This document shows, one piece after another, positions 1-9,008 of a stretch of DNA of 64,000 bases (position 1 is its first letter; each line of letters opens with the position of its first letter). The notes beneath the pieces were generated by a model. That model was given only the letters and a program-made list of their open reading frames with translations. It had not been told where the DNA came from and searched no databases. Made by a program: the position numbers and the translations under genes. Source of the DNA: Actinacidiphila glaucinigra (GTDB lineage Bacteria; Actinomycetota; Actinomycetes; Streptomycetales; Streptomycetaceae); the NCBI RefSeq assembly GCF_900188405.1, contig NZ_FZOF01000005.1, forward strand, positions 434,001-498,000, given 5' to 3'.

Positions 1-2763
1 TCCTGGGTGCTGGCGGGCATGGAGTGGGCCGCGGTCGACCAGGACGCGGACATCGTGAGCATGAGCCTGGGCTCCGAGAACCCCTCCGACGGCACGGATC
101 CCCTCAGCGCCGCGGTCGACCGCCTGAGCGCGCAGACCGGTGCGCTGTTCGTGATCGCCGCGGGCAACATGGGCACGCCCGGCAGCATCGGCGCGCCGGG
201 CGCGGCGGACGCCGCGCTCACCGTGGGAGCCGTCGACTCCTCCGACGAGATGGCCTGGTTCTCCAGCCAGGGTCCGCGCGTCGGCGACGGCGGCCTCAAG
301 CCGGAGATCACCGCCCCGGGCGTCGACGTCCTGGCCGCCCGCTCGCAGTACGCGCCCGAGGGCGAGGGCAGCTACCAGACGCTCAGCGGCACCTCGATGG
401 CCACACCGCACGTCGCGGGCGCGGCGGCCCTGCTCGCGGCCGCGCGTCCCGGGCTGACCGGCGCCCAGCTCAAGGACCTGCTGGTGAGCAGCTCGAAGCG
501 CACCCCGCAGTACGACGCGTTCCAGGCGGGCAGCGGCCGGGTGGACGTCCCGTCGGCGCTCGGCGCCGGCGTGTTCGCCTCGGCGACCGCGTTCACCGGC
601 CAGGCGGAGGCGGGCGGCGGCGCGACCGCGATCCGGCGCCCGGTCACGTACACCAACACCGGGGGTTCCCCGGTGACGCTCGCCCTGTCCGTCGACGCAC
701 CGAACGCCCCCGCGGGGCTGTTCGCGCTGTCCGCGTCGCAGGTCGTCGTGCCGGCGCACGGCACCGCCGAGGTCACCGTCGCCATCGACGGTTCGAAGGC
801 GACCGGCAACGGCCGCTGGTCCGGCCAGGTCGTCGCGGCCGACACGGCGGGGAAGACGGTCACCCACACGGCGGTGTCGCTGGGCGACGCCGCCCACAAG
901 CTGACCATGGTCCTCAAGGACGGCGAAGGCAAGCCCATGTCCGGCGTCGTCCAGGTGCTGCGCTCCGGCGACTTCGACCCGGCGTTCTACCTCGTCGACC
1001 AGACCGGGCGGCTGGAGACCTGGATCCCGGACGACGTCTACTCGGTGCTGTCCTTCAAGGACGTGCGCGGGGTGCACGGCGGGCACTCGATGGGCATGGC
1101 GCTCCTCGGCGACCCCGAGGTCGTCATGGACCGCGACCGGACGGTGACGCTGGACGCGACGAAGCTCCAGCGCGTCGAGATGACGACACCGCAGCCGACC
1201 GAGGCGACGTACCAGCGCCTGGAGTACAACCGCGCGATGGGCGGCGGCACATGGCGCGACTACATGGAGACCCAGACCAGCTACGACAGCCTCTGGGCCC
1301 AGCCCACCACGCACAAGGTCACCCACGGCGACTTCTACCTCGGCGCCCGCTGGCGCAAGGAGCAGCCCGCCCTGTCAGTGACGACCCGCGACGACGAGTT
1401 CACCGACGTCCTGCGGCAGGAGGACGTCACCGCACTCCCCAAGGGCAACTACTCGTTCCCGCTGGTGGCCGCCGGTGACGGCGCGAGCGCGGACTACGCC
1501 GGCCTTTCCGCCCGCGGCAAGGCCGTGGTCGTGCGCCGCAACGGGAACGTGGACGACGCCGAGCAGGCCGCGGCGGCGGTCGCGGCGGGCGCCAGACTCC
1601 TGCTCGTCGTGAACGACCAGCCGGGACGCCAGCTGCGGAGCTACACCGGCGACCCCTTCCTCCCGCCCGCCCCCATCGACGTCGCGCTGCTCAGCACCGA
1701 CGAGGGCGAGCGGCTCATGCGCCGCGCGTCGGCGCGGGGCGCCGTCCTGAAGGTCGGCTCGCAGCCGGTCAGCCCGTACGTCTACGACCTCATGTGGACG
1801 TGGCACAACGAGATCCCGGGCCGGCTCGTCGTCGAGGGCGGCACGAAGAACCTGGCCCGGGTCGACGTGACCTTCGACAGCCCCGACCCGGCCAAGGGCG
1901 GCGGCGAGTTCCGCTTCGACTGGCCCGTGTACTCCAACTGGGGCCTCGGCCTGACGATGCGGGAGCCGGTGAACTCCCGGCGGGTCGACTGGGTCTCCAC
2001 CGGACCCGGGTACTCCTGGGGCCAGGAGGCGTACGTCGACGGCCTGATGTACGAGATCGAGCCGCGCGCCACGTACCGGGCGGGCAGCAGGCACTCCCAG
2101 GAGTGGTTCAAGCCCGTCGAGCGGCCGTACCTCAACAACAACTACAAGCTGCCCACCCGCAGCGGGAGCTGGCTGGCCTTCGACATCCCCGCCTGGGGCG
2201 GCGCGGACCACGTCGGCATGTCGATGGACTACGACCGCACGCGGCAGACGCTGGCGCTCTACCAGGGCGGCACGCTCCTGGGCCGGAGCACGACCAACAC
2301 CAGCATGGGGGGCACCGCCCCGGCCGCGGGCAAGCTGCCCTACCGCCTGGTGCTGGACGCGAGCCGTGACGCGTCGGTGAGCCCCTACTCCTCCGCCACG
2401 CGCACCGAGTGGGAGTTCACGTCCAAGGCGCCGTCGGGCGACGACGCCGCGGTGCTGCCGCTGCCGCAGATCGACTACCGCGTCGCCACGGACGAGGAGG
2501 GCAGGGCCGCCCGGAACGACACGCTGTCCGTGACCGCCGCCCACCTCCCGGGCGCGGTGGGCGCGGGTACCCTCTCGGCCGTCTCGCTGGAGGTGTCCTA
2601 CGACGACGGACGCACCTGGCGGAAGACCGCCTGCGGGCACGACGGCCGCTTCAAGCTGTCCGCCCCGAAGCAGGCCCGGTTCGTCTCGCTGCGTGCGCGT
2701 GCGCACGACTCCGCGGGCAACGCGGTCACCCAGACCGTGACCCGGGCCTTCGGCCTGCGCTGA
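1..2763 (+). CDS. S8 (subtilisin-like) secreted serine peptidase, 5'-truncated by window edge
   Basis: The reading frame is open from base 1, so the start and the catalytic Asp and His lie upstream. The visible part opens at SWVLAGMEWAA, which matches residue 327 of the related peptidase at 5271-9008, so about 326 residues are missing. The oxyanion segment (VIAAGN) and the catalytic Ser in GTSMATPHVAG (Ser codon 394-396) are present. About 750 residues follow the catalytic domain, including a segment like a protease-associated domain and Ig/jelly-roll-like beta regions; these are conserved in the downstream paralogue but their role is unknown. It is probably secreted, by analogy with the paralogue, and degrades extracellular protein. 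A strong hairpin follows the stop codon. Confidence 0.93.
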   Translation, partial: SWVLAGMEWAAVDQDADIVSMSLGSENPSDGTDPLSAAVDRLSAQTGALFVIAAGNMGTPGSIGAPGAADAALTVGAVDSSDEMAWFSSQGPRVGDGGLKPEITAPGVDVLAARSQYAPEGEGSYQTLSGTSMATPHVAGAAALLAAARPGLTGAQLKDLLVSSSKRTPQYDAFQAGSGRVDVPSALGAGVFASATAFTGQAEAGGGATAIRRPVTYTNTGGSPVTLALSVDAPNAPAGLFALSASQVVVPAHGTAEVTVAIDGSKATGNGRWSGQVVAADTAGKTVTHTAVSLGDAAHKLTMVLKDGEGKPMSGVVQVLRSGDFDPAFYLVDQTGRLETWIPDDVYSVLSFKDVRGVHGGHSMGMALLGDPEVVMDRDRTVTLDATKLQRVEMTTPQPTEATYQRLEYNRAMGGGTWRDYMETQTSYDSLWAQPTTHKVTHGDFYLGARWRKEQPALSVTTRDDEFTDVLRQEDVTALPKGNYSFPLVAAGDGASADYAGLSARGKAVVVRRNGNVDDAEQAAAAVAAGARLLLVVNDQPGRQLRSYTGDPFLPPAPIDVALLSTDEGERLMRRASARGAVLKVGSQPVSPYVYDLMWTWHNEIPGRLVVEGGTKNLARVDVTFDSPDPAKGGGEFRFDWPVYSNWGLGLTMREPVNSRRVDWVSTGPGYSWGQEAYVDGLMYEIEPRATYRAGSRHSQEWFKPVERPYLNNNYKLPTRSGSWLAFDIPAWGGADHVGMSMDYDRTRQTLALYQGGTLLGRSTTNTSMGGTAPAAGKLPYRLVLDASRDASVSPYSSATRTEWEFTSKAPSGDDAAVLPLPQIDYRVATDEEGRAARNDTLSVTAAHLPGAVGAGTLSAVSLEVSYDDGRTWRKTACGHDGRFKLSAPKQARFVSLRARAHDSAGNAVTQTVTRAFGLR

Positions 2764-2786
2764 CAGGGGGGCACCGCATCCCCACC

Positions 2787-2820
2787 GGTGCGGGCGGGCC
2801 GTCCACGGCCCGCCCGCACC
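2787..2820 (+). terminator. Hairpin terminator after the first subtilase
   Basis: A perfect 15-bp stem (2787-2801 with 2806-2820, 4-nt loop) lies 24 bp after the stop codon. There is no U-tract, as is common for Streptomyces terminators. It also lies just beyond the end of the minus-strand gene remnant, so it may act in both directions. Confidence 0.7.
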
Positions 2821-2977
2821 GCCGTCATCGCCCCCGCGCCGCGAGCGCGGCGGCCGGGATCCCGTGTGCCGCGAGCCGCGCCAGGAGTTCCGCCTCCTGC
2901 GGCCGTGTGACGGCGATCCGCAGACCGGTCCCCGCGTCGTGCGCGACGAAGACCGTCCGTCCCCCGCACCGGCCGTA

Positions 2978-3280
2978 GGCCGTGTCGTCAAATGAGCTCC
3001 CCCAGCTACCGCTGGGAGGTGCCCCCACCGCCCGGAGGGCGGGCTCGGCGGCTCCCCCAGCTGACGCTGGGCGGTGCCCCCAGGTGCGGTGCATCGCAAG
3101 GCGGAGAGTCGTCCTCGTAGTGGGCTACTCGGACGATTCGACAACGCAGCGTGGGGGCACCTCCCAGCGAAGCTGGGGGAGTGCCGTGCCTGGGGGCACC
3201 TCCCGGCGGAGCTGGGGGAGCGTCGCCGAGTGGGGGCACCCCCGGCCGAAGGTTGGGGGAGGGCATTTGACGACACGGCC
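2978..3280. mobile_element. 303-bp MITE-like element with 17-bp terminal inverted repeats and TA duplication
   Basis: The ends are perfect 17-bp inverted repeats, GGCCGTGTCGTCAAATG at 2978-2994 and its complement at 3264-3280; similarity continues imperfectly for about 12 bp more. TA flanks both sides (2976-2977 and 3281-3282), consistent with a 2-bp target duplication as made by IS630/Tc1-mariner or IS427-type IS5 transposases. No transposase ORF fits inside, so it is non-autonomous and would need a transposase supplied in trans. It interrupts a minus-strand hypothetical gene. Confidence 0.85.
2997..3262. repeat. Five copies of a ~33-bp palindromic unit inside the MITE
   Basis: Units begin near 2997, 3054, 3150, 3190 and 3231. 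Each has the pattern CTCCCCCAGCT, a short spacer, GCTGGGAGGTGCCCCC or its complement. Two are in one orientation and three in the other, so the element could fold into a large clustered stem-loop structure. The last copy (3231-3262) is the most diverged. Confidence 0.8.
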
Positions 3281-3661
3281 TAAGCGTGGATCGTGTACGG
3301 GGCCAGGTCGAGCAGCAGGCCGAACTGCGCGTCGTCCCGTGCGTCGATGTCGATCCCCATTCCGGGGTCGTCCCTCCGGGAGCGCGTCCCGGCTGTCACC
3401 GCCTCCCGGGCCAGGGCGAGCACACCCCGGTACGAGGACAGCGCCTCGTCGGGCCAGGCACCGTCGGTGTAGGCGTCGACGTGCGCGCTGTGGAGATCCG
3501 GCCGCAGGACGCGCAACGCCTCCCGGTGGACGAGCACCACGTCCGCGGGCTCCAGTCCGCACGCGGGCACGAATCCGCGGCGCCGGCCGCCGTCCTTGTC
3601 GATCACCCCGAAGACCCTGCCATACGCCTTCGCCCCCCCGCTTCACGCGGTGCCACGGAAG

Positions 3662-3703
3662 ACGCCGGGACCCCGGGGGCGGCGGCCCCCGGGGTCCCGG
3701 CGT
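3662..3703 (-). terminator. 19-bp stem hairpin downstream of the FMN reductase gene
   Basis: A perfect 19-bp stem (3662-3680 with 3685-3703, 4-nt loop) begins 8 bp past the stop codon of the minus-strand reductase. It also separates that gene from the interrupted gene downstream. Confidence 0.75.
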
Positions 3704-5270: not shown

Positions 5271-8200
5271 GTGAGACCGCTCTTCCCAGGCCGAACCGGC
5301 CTGCCGATCGTCGCGGGTGTCGCGGCCGTGCTGATGGTGATCCCACCGGCGGCTGCCAGCGACCACGCCGCCGCCGGCTCCCCGTCGGACAGCGTGACCG
5401 TGACCGGCGGAGCCCCCGCCGGCTCCACCCCGCGCACCGTCACCCTCATCACCGGCGACCGGGTCACCGTCGCACCCGGCGGCGACGGCCGCGCCTCCGT
5501 GACCGTGGAAGGCCCCCGGGGCCACCGCGCGGACGCCCGCATCACCACGCGGCAAGGCGACACCTACGTCTACCCGTTCGCCGCCGAGCGGTACGTGGCG
5601 GCCGGGCTGCTGGACACCGACCTCTTCAACGTCACGCGCCTGATCGCGGACGGTTACGACGACGCGCGGTCCAAGGGCCTGCCCGTCATCCTGACCTACT
5701 CCTCCGACGCCCGCCGCAGGCTCGCGGCGCCCGCCCTCCCCGAGGGGGCCACCGGCGCACGCGCGCTGACCAGCATCGACAGCACCGCCACCACCCAGGA
5801 CCACGACCAGGCGGCGGAGTTCTGGGCCGACCTGACCGGCCCGGCCACCGCGCAGACCACCGCGAAGGCGAAAGCCGGCGGCCTCGCCCTCACCGGCGGC
5901 GTGCGCAAGGTGTGGCTGGACGGCAAGGTCAAGGCCGACCTCGCGGACAGCGTCGCGCAGATCGGCGCCCCCGACGTGTGGGCGGGCGGCGACACGGGCC
6001 AGGGTGTGGACGTCGCGGTCCTCGACACGGGCTACGACCCCGGGCACCCCGACCTCGACGGCGTCGTCACCGACTCCCGCAGCTTCGTGCCCGGCGAGGA
6101 CGTCGACGACCACCACGGCCACGGCACCCACGTGGCGTCCACCATCGCCGGCAGCGGCGCCGCCTCCGACGGCAAGGAGAAGGGCGTCGCCCCCGGCGTG
6201 CGGCTGCACGTGGGCAAGGTCCTCAGCAACGCCGGCAGCGGTTCCGACTCCTGGATCATCAGCGGCATGGAGTGGGCCGCCCGCGAGGCCAAGGCCCGCG
6301 TGGTCAGCATGAGTCTCGGCAGCGACCAGCCCACCGACGGCACCGACCCGATGAGCCAGGCGGTGAACGAACTCAGCGCCGAGACCGGCACGCTGTTCAC
6401 CATAGCCGCCGGCAACTCGGGCCCGTACGAGGGCACCGTGGCGGCGCCCGGCGCCGCCGACGCCGCGCTCACCGTCGGCGCCGTCGACTCCTCCGACGCC
6501 ATCGCCGACTTCTCCAGCCGCGGCCCCCGCTTCCGGGACGACGCGATGAAGCCGGAGATCACCGCCCCCGGCGTCGACATCCTGGCGGCCCGCTCGCAGT
6601 GGGCGCCCTTCGGCACCGGGTCGTACGCCACCCTCAGCGGCACGTCGATGGCCACCCCGCACGTGGCGGGCGTCGCCGCCCTGGTGGCGGCGAAGCACCC
6701 CGACTGGAACGGCGCCCGGATCAAGGACGCCCTGGTCTCGACCTCCGTGGCGACGCCGGACATCCCCGCGGACTCCGGCGGCAACGGCCGCGTGGACGCG
6801 GTGGCCGCCACCAGCAGCACGCTCGTGGCCACGGCCACCGCCGACGCCGGCATCCACCCCCCGGGCGGCGAGGCCGGCGGGACCGTCACCCGCACCGTGG
6901 AATGGGCCAACTCCGGTGACACCGCGGTCACCGTGACGCCGCGCCTGGACGCGGGGGACGCGCCCGAGGGCCTCTTCACGGTGACAGACCGTCAGGTCAC
7001 TGTCCCCGCACACGGCACCGCGTCCACCACCGTGACCACCACGCTCGACCGGGCCCCGGCGGGATCCCGCTTCACCGGGCACGTCGAGGGCGTCGTCGAC
7101 GGCAAGGCCGTCACGCGCACCCTGCTCGCGGTCAGCACCCGTGACGAGTACCACCACCTGCGCGTCCACGTCACCGACCGCGCCGGCGACCCGATGGTCG
7201 GCCTGGTGATGTACCAGCGCAAGGGCGACGAGTACGCGCAGGCCCTCTACACCGACCTCGACGGCGTGCTCGACACCGTCGTCCCGCCGGGCACGTACAC
7301 CGTCTGGACCTGGGGCGCCGTGCGCGGCGTCCACGGCGAGTCCTCCTACGGGCGGGCGCTGCTGGCCAGGACCGGCGTCGTGGTCGGCAACGCCGACACC
7401 GACACGACGCTGGACGGCACGAAGCTGCGCAGGACCGAGGTCGTCACGCCGAAGACCTCCACGGACAGCGACATCCGCATGGACTTCAACCAGTCCTTCA
7501 AGGACGGGTCCCCGGCGATCACGGACACCGCGACGGTCGGCGACGGCTTCGACAGCGTGTGGGCGCTGCCCATGCCGAAGGCCTCCGGCGGCGACCTGGC
7601 GTACACGGCCCGCTGGCGCATGCAGCAGCCGCTGCTGGCGCTCTCCTCCGGTGACCAGGTCTTCGACGACCTGTGGCTCCAGCCCGGTTCCGGCCGTCCC
7701 GCCGAGGGCACCGGCACGCTGCCCGCGGTCTTCGCCGGCAAGGGCACCGCGGCCGAGTACGCGTCCGCCGGCGCCAAGGGCAAGGTGGCCGTGGTCCGCT
7801 ACACGGGGGACGACGACCAGATCACCGACGCCCAGAAGGCGGGCGTCGCCCTGCTGGTCGTGGTGAACGACCTGGACGGCCGGCTGCGCGAGCCCGTGCG
7901 CCGCACCACCCTCGTCGTCGCCGGCATCTCCCGCACCGAGGGCGAGACGCTGATCGGCCGCATCCAGGACAGCCGTTCCGGCTCGGTGCCGATGCGGGTC
8001 GTCGGCCACGCCGAGACGGACTACCTGTACGACCTGGTGCACACCTGGCACGGGACGATCCCGCAGACCCAGCGCTACGCGCCGGCCGAGCACCGGCTGG
8101 CCCGGGTCGACGTCGGGTTCCGCAACGAACCCGGCACGGAGGTCGACGAGTTCCGCTACGACATCCAGCCCTACCTGGGTGTCAAGGTCGGCGGCACCCG

Positions 8201-9008
8201 GCTGTCGTCCGCCGGCGCCGAGCGCACCGACTGGGTGACCCCGTCGGGTGAGGCGACCTGGATGGAGGAGGCCGCCAACGGCATCCGCTCGATCCAGTTC
8301 TCCGGGCTGGTCGGCTACCCGGCCGGGCGCACCACCGACGTCCAGTGGTTCGGGCCCGTGGAGCACCCGCGGATGAACGAGAGCCAGTGGCTGCCGCAGC
8401 GCAACGGCGACGTCCTCGACGTCACCATCCCGGCCTGGGGTGACGGCGGCCGCGACCACGCGGGTGTGGTCGGTCCGGGCACCACCTCCCAGGTGAACGA
8501 GCTCTACCGGGGCGGCGACCTCGTCACCCGCACCGAGGGCGGCTGGCTGGGCGGCGACGTCCCGGCGGCGTCCGGCCGGTACCGGCTGGTGACGTCCACC
8601 GAGCGGACGGAGGGGTACCCGTACTCCACCGCGACCCGCACCGAGTGGGGCTTCTCCTCCGCGACGCCGGGCACGGACGACCCGCAGGTGCTCCCGCTCC
8701 TGCAGCTCGACTACGGGATCCGCACCGATGCGGGCGGCGCCGCGCGGCGCGACGCCGAACTCACGGTGAGCGCCTCCCCGTTGCCGGGCGTGTCGGCCGG
8801 GCGGGTCAGCACCGACGCGGTGGAGGTCTCGTACGACGACGGCCGGACGTGGCACCGGGCCTCGCTGCGCGGCGCGGAGGACGGCGCCGCCCGGGTCCGC
8901 CTGGACGCGCCGCGACGCGCCGAGTTCCTGTCGCTGCGCGTGCGCGCCTCGGACAAGCGCGGCAACACGGTGACGCAGACGGTGATCCGGGCGACCGGCC
9001 TGGCCTGA
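5271..9008 (+). CDS. S8 (subtilisin-like) secreted serine peptidase, 1245 residues
   Basis: The GTG start is preceded by AAGGA at a normal distance. A Sec-type signal peptide (RPLFPGRTGLPIVAG...PPAAAS) is followed by a propeptide-like region to about residue 235. The catalytic triad is Asp252 (VLDTGYDPGHPD), His284 (HGHGTHVAS) and Ser459 (GTSMATPHVAG), with the oxyanion Asn in IAAGNSG. About 750 residues follow the catalytic domain, including a PA-like insertion (GKVAVVRYTG) and beta-rich segments shared with the truncated paralogue upstream. It probably degrades extracellular protein. The catalytic cores of the two paralogues align almost without gaps, pointing to an old tandem duplication. 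A terminator hairpin follows. Confidence 0.95.
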   Translation: MRPLFPGRTGLPIVAGVAAVLMVIPPAAASDHAAAGSPSDSVTVTGGAPAGSTPRTVTLITGDRVTVAPGGDGRASVTVEGPRGHRADARITTRQGDTYVYPFAAERYVAAGLLDTDLFNVTRLIADGYDDARSKGLPVILTYSSDARRRLAAPALPEGATGARALTSIDSTATTQDHDQAAEFWADLTGPATAQTTAKAKAGGLALTGGVRKVWLDGKVKADLADSVAQIGAPDVWAGGDTGQGVDVAVLDTGYDPGHPDLDGVVTDSRSFVPGEDVDDHHGHGTHVASTIAGSGAASDGKEKGVAPGVRLHVGKVLSNAGSGSDSWIISGMEWAAREAKARVVSMSLGSDQPTDGTDPMSQAVNELSAETGTLFTIAAGNSGPYEGTVAAPGAADAALTVGAVDSSDAIADFSSRGPRFRDDAMKPEITAPGVDILAARSQWAPFGTGSYATLSGTSMATPHVAGVAALVAAKHPDWNGARIKDALVSTSVATPDIPADSGGNGRVDAVAATSSTLVATATADAGIHPPGGEAGGTVTRTVEWANSGDTAVTVTPRLDAGDAPEGLFTVTDRQVTVPAHGTASTTVTTTLDRAPAGSRFTGHVEGVVDGKAVTRTLLAVSTRDEYHHLRVHVTDRAGDPMVGLVMYQRKGDEYAQALYTDLDGVLDTVVPPGTYTVWTWGAVRGVHGESSYGRALLARTGVVVGNADTDTTLDGTKLRRTEVVTPKTSTDSDIRMDFNQSFKDGSPAITDTATVGDGFDSVWALPMPKASGGDLAYTARWRMQQPLLALSSGDQVFDDLWLQPGSGRPAEGTGTLPAVFAGKGTAAEYASAGAKGKVAVVRYTGDDDQITDAQKAGVALLVVVNDLDGRLREPVRRTTLVVAGISRTEGETLIGRIQDSRSGSVPMRVVGHAETDYLYDLVHTWHGTIPQTQRYAPAEHRLARVDVGFRNEPGTEVDEFRYDIQPYLGVKVGGTRLSSAGAERTDWVTPSGEATWMEEAANGIRSIQFSGLVGYPAGRTTDVQWFGPVEHPRMNESQWLPQRNGDVLDVTIPAWGDGGRDHAGVVGPGTTSQVNELYRGGDLVTRTEGGWLGGDVPAASGRYRLVTSTERTEGYPYSTATRTEWGFSSATPGTDDPQVLPLLQLDYGIRTDAGGAARRDAELTVSASPLPGVSAGRVSTDAVEVSYDDGRTWHRASLRGAEDGAARVRLDAPRRAEFLSLRVRASDKRGNTVTQTVIRATGLA

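Follow-up and report, generated by a model that had tools for sequence, protein, structure and literature searches.

A folded core inside MITE-like elements of Actinomycetota, and a 303-bp copy that truncates a gene in Actinacidiphila glaucinigra

Introduction

MITEs are usually regarded as decaying remnants of one transposon. Among the closest described systems, Correia repeats (Neisseria), ERIC and RUP are intergenic MITE-like repeats of about 100-160 bp with a TA duplication and RNA-like hairpins, and insertion sequences (ISs) of the IS5/IS427 type make a 2-bp TA duplication in CTAG-like sites. In the accessible part of PMC11109978, the mobile/repeat motif MRSC-65-2 is described as multi-copy, with a long covarying stem, thought to be selfish and possibly relevant as DNA; the same part presents it as a single long stem with repeated UYCCGG, counts 250 mobile/repeat candidates and has S. 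avermitilis among its genomes (PMC11109978). Here we follow up an earlier note on a stretch of 64,000 nucleotides from Actinacidiphila glaucinigra (the whole stretch is called the window below), in which a MITE-like element had been seen to split a gene.

Results

The element in the window and its copies in the same genome

The earlier note had described a 303-bp segment whose 17-bp inverted ends match perfectly and which lies between two TA copies; the sequence confirms this description with exact ends. The element occupies 2978-3280 and contains no gene; its perfect 17-bp inverted ends sit within a 53-nt imperfect arm that is 81% complementary, and TA at 2976-2977 and at 3281-3282 flanks it. 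When up to three mismatches are allowed, the element end occurs twice in the window versus 0.20 occurrences expected from shuffles, and folding of the element DNA gives z = -16.7. The parts of the locus are as follows.

2825..2977, minus strand: interrupted gene, 3' part, 50 residues and stop
2976..2977: TA, target duplication copy 1
2978..2994, plus strand: left 17-bp terminal inverted repeat, GGCCGTGTCGTCAAATG
2998..3027, minus strand: palindromic unit of about 30 bp, left 1, missing in four aligned copies of 173/174 nt
3053..3082, minus strand: palindromic unit of about 30 bp, left 2
3083..3151, plus strand: conserved structured core, inner part of a fold of about 100 nt (match of core model R1)
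3152..3181, plus strand: palindromic unit of about 30 bp, right 1
3191..3220, plus strand: palindromic unit of about 30 bp, right 2
3231..3260, plus strand: palindromic unit of about 30 bp, right 3, variant type
3264..3280, minus strand: right 17-bp terminal inverted repeat
3281..3282: TA, target duplication copy 2
3280..3606, minus strand: interrupted gene, 5' part, 108 codons and a TAG made by the junction

Core model R1 matches the window at 3086-3163 on the plus strand with 61 bits. The outer stem of the fold appears to have been replaced by the palindromic units, so that the core in the window is left without it.

The earlier note had also called the element MITE-like and proposed a genome-wide count of its copies, and many copies were indeed found in the same genome (a 9.8-Mb draft of 80 contigs). 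Both ends were present at 21 of 24 related places examined, with lengths of 127 to 304 nt; of these 21 two-ended copies, 13 are flanked by TA at both ends and 11 show the arrangement CTA..TAG. The head TGGGGGCACCTCCC occurs exactly 24 times in this genome, namely in 20 two-ended copies, in one one-ended relative and at three places elsewhere. Thirteen copies were aligned, and the number of palindromic units of about 30 bp differs among them: none in four copies of 173/174 nt, one in two 200-nt copies, four in three copies of 262-266 nt, and five in four copies of 300-304 nt, the window copy included. These units take the place of short native segments and are not simple additions; the five units within 2998-3260 of the window replace a small number of native bases, which at two sites are AGG. 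The right-most variant unit (query part 249-289) is also dispersed at many other places of this genome. By every feature tested, the element in the window is a MITE.

A covarying core within differing ends

A core of about 100 nt is common to elements with differing ends. RNAalifold folded 14 copies of this core into a structure of 38 pairs, 13 of them with compensatory changes. In an alignment of 89 distinct core matches that was fitted to the model, 96.0% of the cells pair and 26 of the 38 pairs are changed on both sides, and the covariation score is 0.320 versus 0.119 for shuffled and at most 0.077 for slid controls. An alignment of 44 diverse copies, likewise fitted to the model, has compensatory changes in 30 of the 38 pairs and a score of 0.454 (0.146 shuffled, at most 0.109 slid). 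The same architecture emerged when 15 copies that lie outside the family were aligned independently of the model, and here 25 of 37 pairs show compensatory changes.

The core contains a pair of internal loops, in one of which AAG faces a single base and in the other GA faces GACAA, and these loops together with the adjoining short stems hold most of the near-invariant positions. Averaged over the core, conservation is equal in unpaired and paired positions (0.78 vs 0.79), and the end loop is variable. In distant copies the stem sequences diverge yet still pair, and the motifs of the internal loops are nearly unchanged. G.U cells outnumber A.C cells by 518 to 26 in A2 and by 105 to 20 in A3, which includes two reverse-strand rows; the folding energies of the two strands are -65 vs -41.8 kcal/mol in one copy and -72.4 vs -61.6 kcal/mol in another, and at two loci the model scores 104.8 and 95.3 bits on one strand vs 33.7 and 34.9 bits on the other. 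The fold belongs to one strand. A search of Rfam release 15 with positions 2700-3700 of the window and with 16 core loci returned nothing near gathering score.

Of 120 aligned rows, 108 were kept after removal of duplicates, of two reverse-strand doubles, of the window row and of cores shorter than 95 or longer than 104 nt, and 72 of these entered a tree of the cores (36 were excluded for weak ends or length). The core sits inside roughly 11 kinds of ends, a number obtained by merging by hand classes that were out of register; automatic clustering gave 16 classes, one of which holds 42 of the 72 rows. When the tree of the 72 cores is set against the end types, most forks are unresolved, and the counts of end changes stand without a control. 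It is the interior and not the ends that is the constant part of this family, which is unusual for a MITE.

Distribution of the core

All genomes scanned belong to Actinomycetota. Within the family, 155 of the 200 genomes scanned have an R1 match, covering 12 of 17 genera. At the level of the class, R1 matched in 76 of 394 genomes and in 22 of 138 genera; 44 of the 76 genomes come from other families, 16 of them with E <= 1e-6 and the remainder weaker, these E-values being rough. R2 was run on 396 genomes from across the phylum and, at an equally rough threshold of 1e-5, matched in 14, three of which are from other classes and carry inverted ends of their own. Chance matches are disfavoured because near-identical copies repeat, the loops are kept and inverted ends are present. 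A scan of named genomes gave at least 80 records with the core, and 78 of the 80 among the matches listed are from Streptomyces. Core matches were also found in 52 plasmid records (51 Streptomyces and 1 Embleya), and none in the phage records scanned. In one genome (G041), core copies lie at or near the ends of contigs C2, C16, C28 and C64, as if the assembly had been broken by the repeat.

Landing on stop codons

With automatic boundaries, TA was present on both sides in 42 of 108 copies, a low count that partly comes from misplaced automatic edges. From these 42, 40 had strong enough ends and 36 of those also had enough flank, and the 36 were used as a clean set. In 25 of this set, a coding-like ORF terminates exactly at the junction. 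At 28 of 29 junction stops, the site without the element would likewise read as a stop, and the genes ending there have therefore not been shortened. Among copies whose restored site is CTAG, 21 of 28 lie on a gene stop by a simple coding test, versus 16 of 65 background CTAGs counted with the elements masked (Fisher p = 4e-5 for stop vs intergenic, copies being treated as independent); a stricter gene caller placed 13 of the 28 on a stop. In the A. glaucinigra genome, 9 of 13 copies are on a stop codon, with a threshold set by the analyst, and the window copy is the sole one of the 13 inside a coding-like frame. In annotated plasmids, a gene ends exactly at 3 of 13 copies, or at 3 of 6 when the count is restricted to copies flanked by TA at both ends, with four gene ends in total; of the 19 plasmid regions, five were without annotation in the stretch examined and 13 of the other 14 were used. 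In the excluded region (L375), the core falls within a frame annotated as a hypothetical protein. The principle of stop-codon landing is clear, its share varying with the test, and the mid-gene landing of the window copy is atypical of the cleanly bounded copies of the family. Among the papers listed in a literature search, none gave an account of this core or of stop-codon landing.

These positions raise the question of whether the core might be a regulatory or 3'-end element (a terminator or an mRNA-stabilising structure) that has been kept for helping the genes at whose stops it lies. Its fold is very stable, and in 27 members of the clean set of 36 a coding-like ORF ends right beside the element (at eight non-CTAG sites the codon is unchecked). 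However, although the fold is strand-specific, its orientation at stops is close to random, with 12 copies sense and 17 antisense to the neighbouring gene, and mobility is indicated by the inverted ends, by the TA duplication and by the number of copies. A crude gene caller gave 10 ++ and 23 -- orientations, and annotated plasmids, in which the bias of that caller is absent, gave 4 ++ and 1 --. Because orientation is inconsistent, a simple role in the mRNA of the neighbour is disfavoured and a role in the life of the element itself is favoured; we consider a helper of neighbouring genes unlikely.

A transposase partner

The earlier note had pointed to an IS630 or IS427-type transposase with matching ends, and a candidate of the latter type was found. 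In a genome of another genus of the family (G051), the end GGGCCTGTCGTCAAA is found at three places, each time paired with a second end at a distance of 892 bp. The one place that was read fully has TA on both sides of the 892 bp and the site CTA..TAC. The left and right ends of this IS are identical to the 17-bp end of the window element in 15 of 17 and 14 of 17 positions, and its two frames match DUF4096 (6e-28) and DDE_Tnp_1 (1.6e-23); we take it to be an IS427-type member of the IS5 family. For two further end types of the MITE family, matches of 17/17 and 16/17 were found with the ends of other DUF4096 ISs. Since ends are shared with DUF4096 ISs, a partner of the IS5/IS427 type is supported.

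Within the A. glaucinigra draft, no full IS with the ends of the window element was found, none of the DUF4096 loci carries such an end, and no transposase was seen at the single leftover end matches on contigs C44, C17 and C32. IS5 transposases are annotated near two plasmid copies, and the stretch examined around them was without the ends of those copies. In the matching IS that was read fully (L181), the two transposase frames overlap near the run CGAAAAAGGGG at about 1878-1889, where a programmed frameshift is possible. At L180 (1503-1563, G088:C1:23558-23618), there is a palindromic mini-element of 61 nt, with GGGCCTGTCGTCAAA at its ends and TA copies outside, and pairs of ends at similar spacing also occur elsewhere in that genome.

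An ordinary MITE would be an internal-deletion derivative of such an IS, with a functionless hairpin interior and with copies alike through recent spread. Long palindromes are common in MITEs, and the copies in one genome are often near-identical, as after a burst. However, the matching IS shares only its ends with the copies compared: blastn of its interior against the window element and a 173-nt copy gave only matches of chance length (10 bases or fewer). Likewise, stems of distant copies differ widely but pair, and the internal-loop motifs are nearly constant, which weakens this explanation. We regard this explanation as improbable. Mobilisation by an IS630/Tc1-type transposase appears very unlikely. 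Transposases of this type also use TA in CTAG, and one of the plasmid copies has an annotated IS630 transposase at a distance of about 0.9 kb, but the ends found here match the DUF4096/DDE_Tnp_1 IS, and for two other end types the matching ISs are likewise of the DUF4096 kind.

The interrupted gene

As the earlier note had proposed, deletion of the element joins the two minus-strand fragments, and the current stop codon is a product of the junction. The ORF at 3606-3280 ends in a TAG made of TA (3282-3281) and G3280, the outermost base of the element, and so its stop is junction-made. From TA 2977-2976 the frame continues on the minus strand for 50 residues and then stops, and the joined frame comprises 158 residues and a stop, that is, 159 codons. 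The window copy inserted mid-gene, in the sense codon TAC, and truncated the gene.

A search of 34 other genomes of the genus gave homologues of the joined protein, with 55-62% identity, at nine places in 8 genomes, and they align without a gap across residues 108/109 in the stretch shown; a tenth place, in a ninth genome, gave a partial alignment only. The refutation that the earlier note had envisaged, no uninterrupted homologue in any relative, did not occur. Because homologues in eight genomes span the join, the gene is real and interrupted, with the uninterrupted site in relatives established at the protein level; that the split frame is a chance arrangement of pieces that were never one gene has next to no probability and is refuted by these alignments over both pieces, the ninth genome aligning partly. 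The insertion had been called datable, and this did not hold up: the best homologue is just 62% identical and cannot bracket the event in time. No family was found for the joined protein in Pfam, for three homologues in Pfam and NCBIfam, or for two homologues in PADLOC. In G034:C5 and G027:C1, there are five places where a DUF4096 transposase is encoded some 0.7 kb away from a homologue of the gene. Large ORFs at 7-2763 and 5271-9008 of the window flank the neighbourhood of the gene, and they carry a GTSMATPH motif of subtilisin-like type.

Discussion

Taken together, we are highly confident in a joint reading in which the element is a MITE relative of IS427-type ISs of the IS5 family, mobilised in trans, with rebuilding of TAG at its target and with a core that may work as RNA or single-stranded DNA. 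An IS5-type transposase acting in trans would cut the inverted ends and insert the element at TA. Most ends start with G, and TA followed by this G would rebuild TAG; insertion into the CTAG stop of a gene should thus leave that gene intact. Such rebuilding would explain both why many clean copies lie on stops and why the window copy, which entered a sense codon, truncates its gene. The strand-specific core may act in the spread of the element and not for the neighbouring gene, either as an RNA or in the form of folded single-stranded DNA, possibly bound by a host or transposition protein. This role in the life cycle of the element is our best guess and the least certain part of the reading.

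A further and more tentative possibility, which we would at present sooner doubt than accept, is that the folded core is itself the replicator. It might be a phylum-wide structured parasite, made of RNA or single-stranded DNA, that rides many IS5-type transposases by means of their inverted ends, its near-invariant internal loops recruiting a shared factor and its hosts being spared by the rebuilding of stops.

One covarying folded core persists across Actinomycetota while the transposon ends around it vary, and a working RNA or single-stranded DNA part in such elements, with its binding partner, becomes testable. Landing on stop codons suggests a way in which insertions are tolerated in gene-dense genomes. 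For annotators, TA followed by G at a junction may mark either an untouched natural stop or a truncation, as in the window.

With regard to known systems, the window element resembles the matching IS427-type IS of the IS5 family in 15/17 and 14/17 end bases and in its TA flanks, but differs in having no gene and in sharing no interior with it. The likeness to Correia repeats, ERIC and RUP is one of design only, judged by description (TA duplication and strong hairpins); in contrast to them, the family described here has one covarying core in roughly 11 end types, a phylum-wide range and stop-codon landing. As far as the accessible part of PMC11109978 goes, MRSC-65-2 is alike in being multi-copy with a covarying stem and differs in being a single stem with repeated UYCCGG, and the core may already be among the 250 mobile/repeat candidates counted there.
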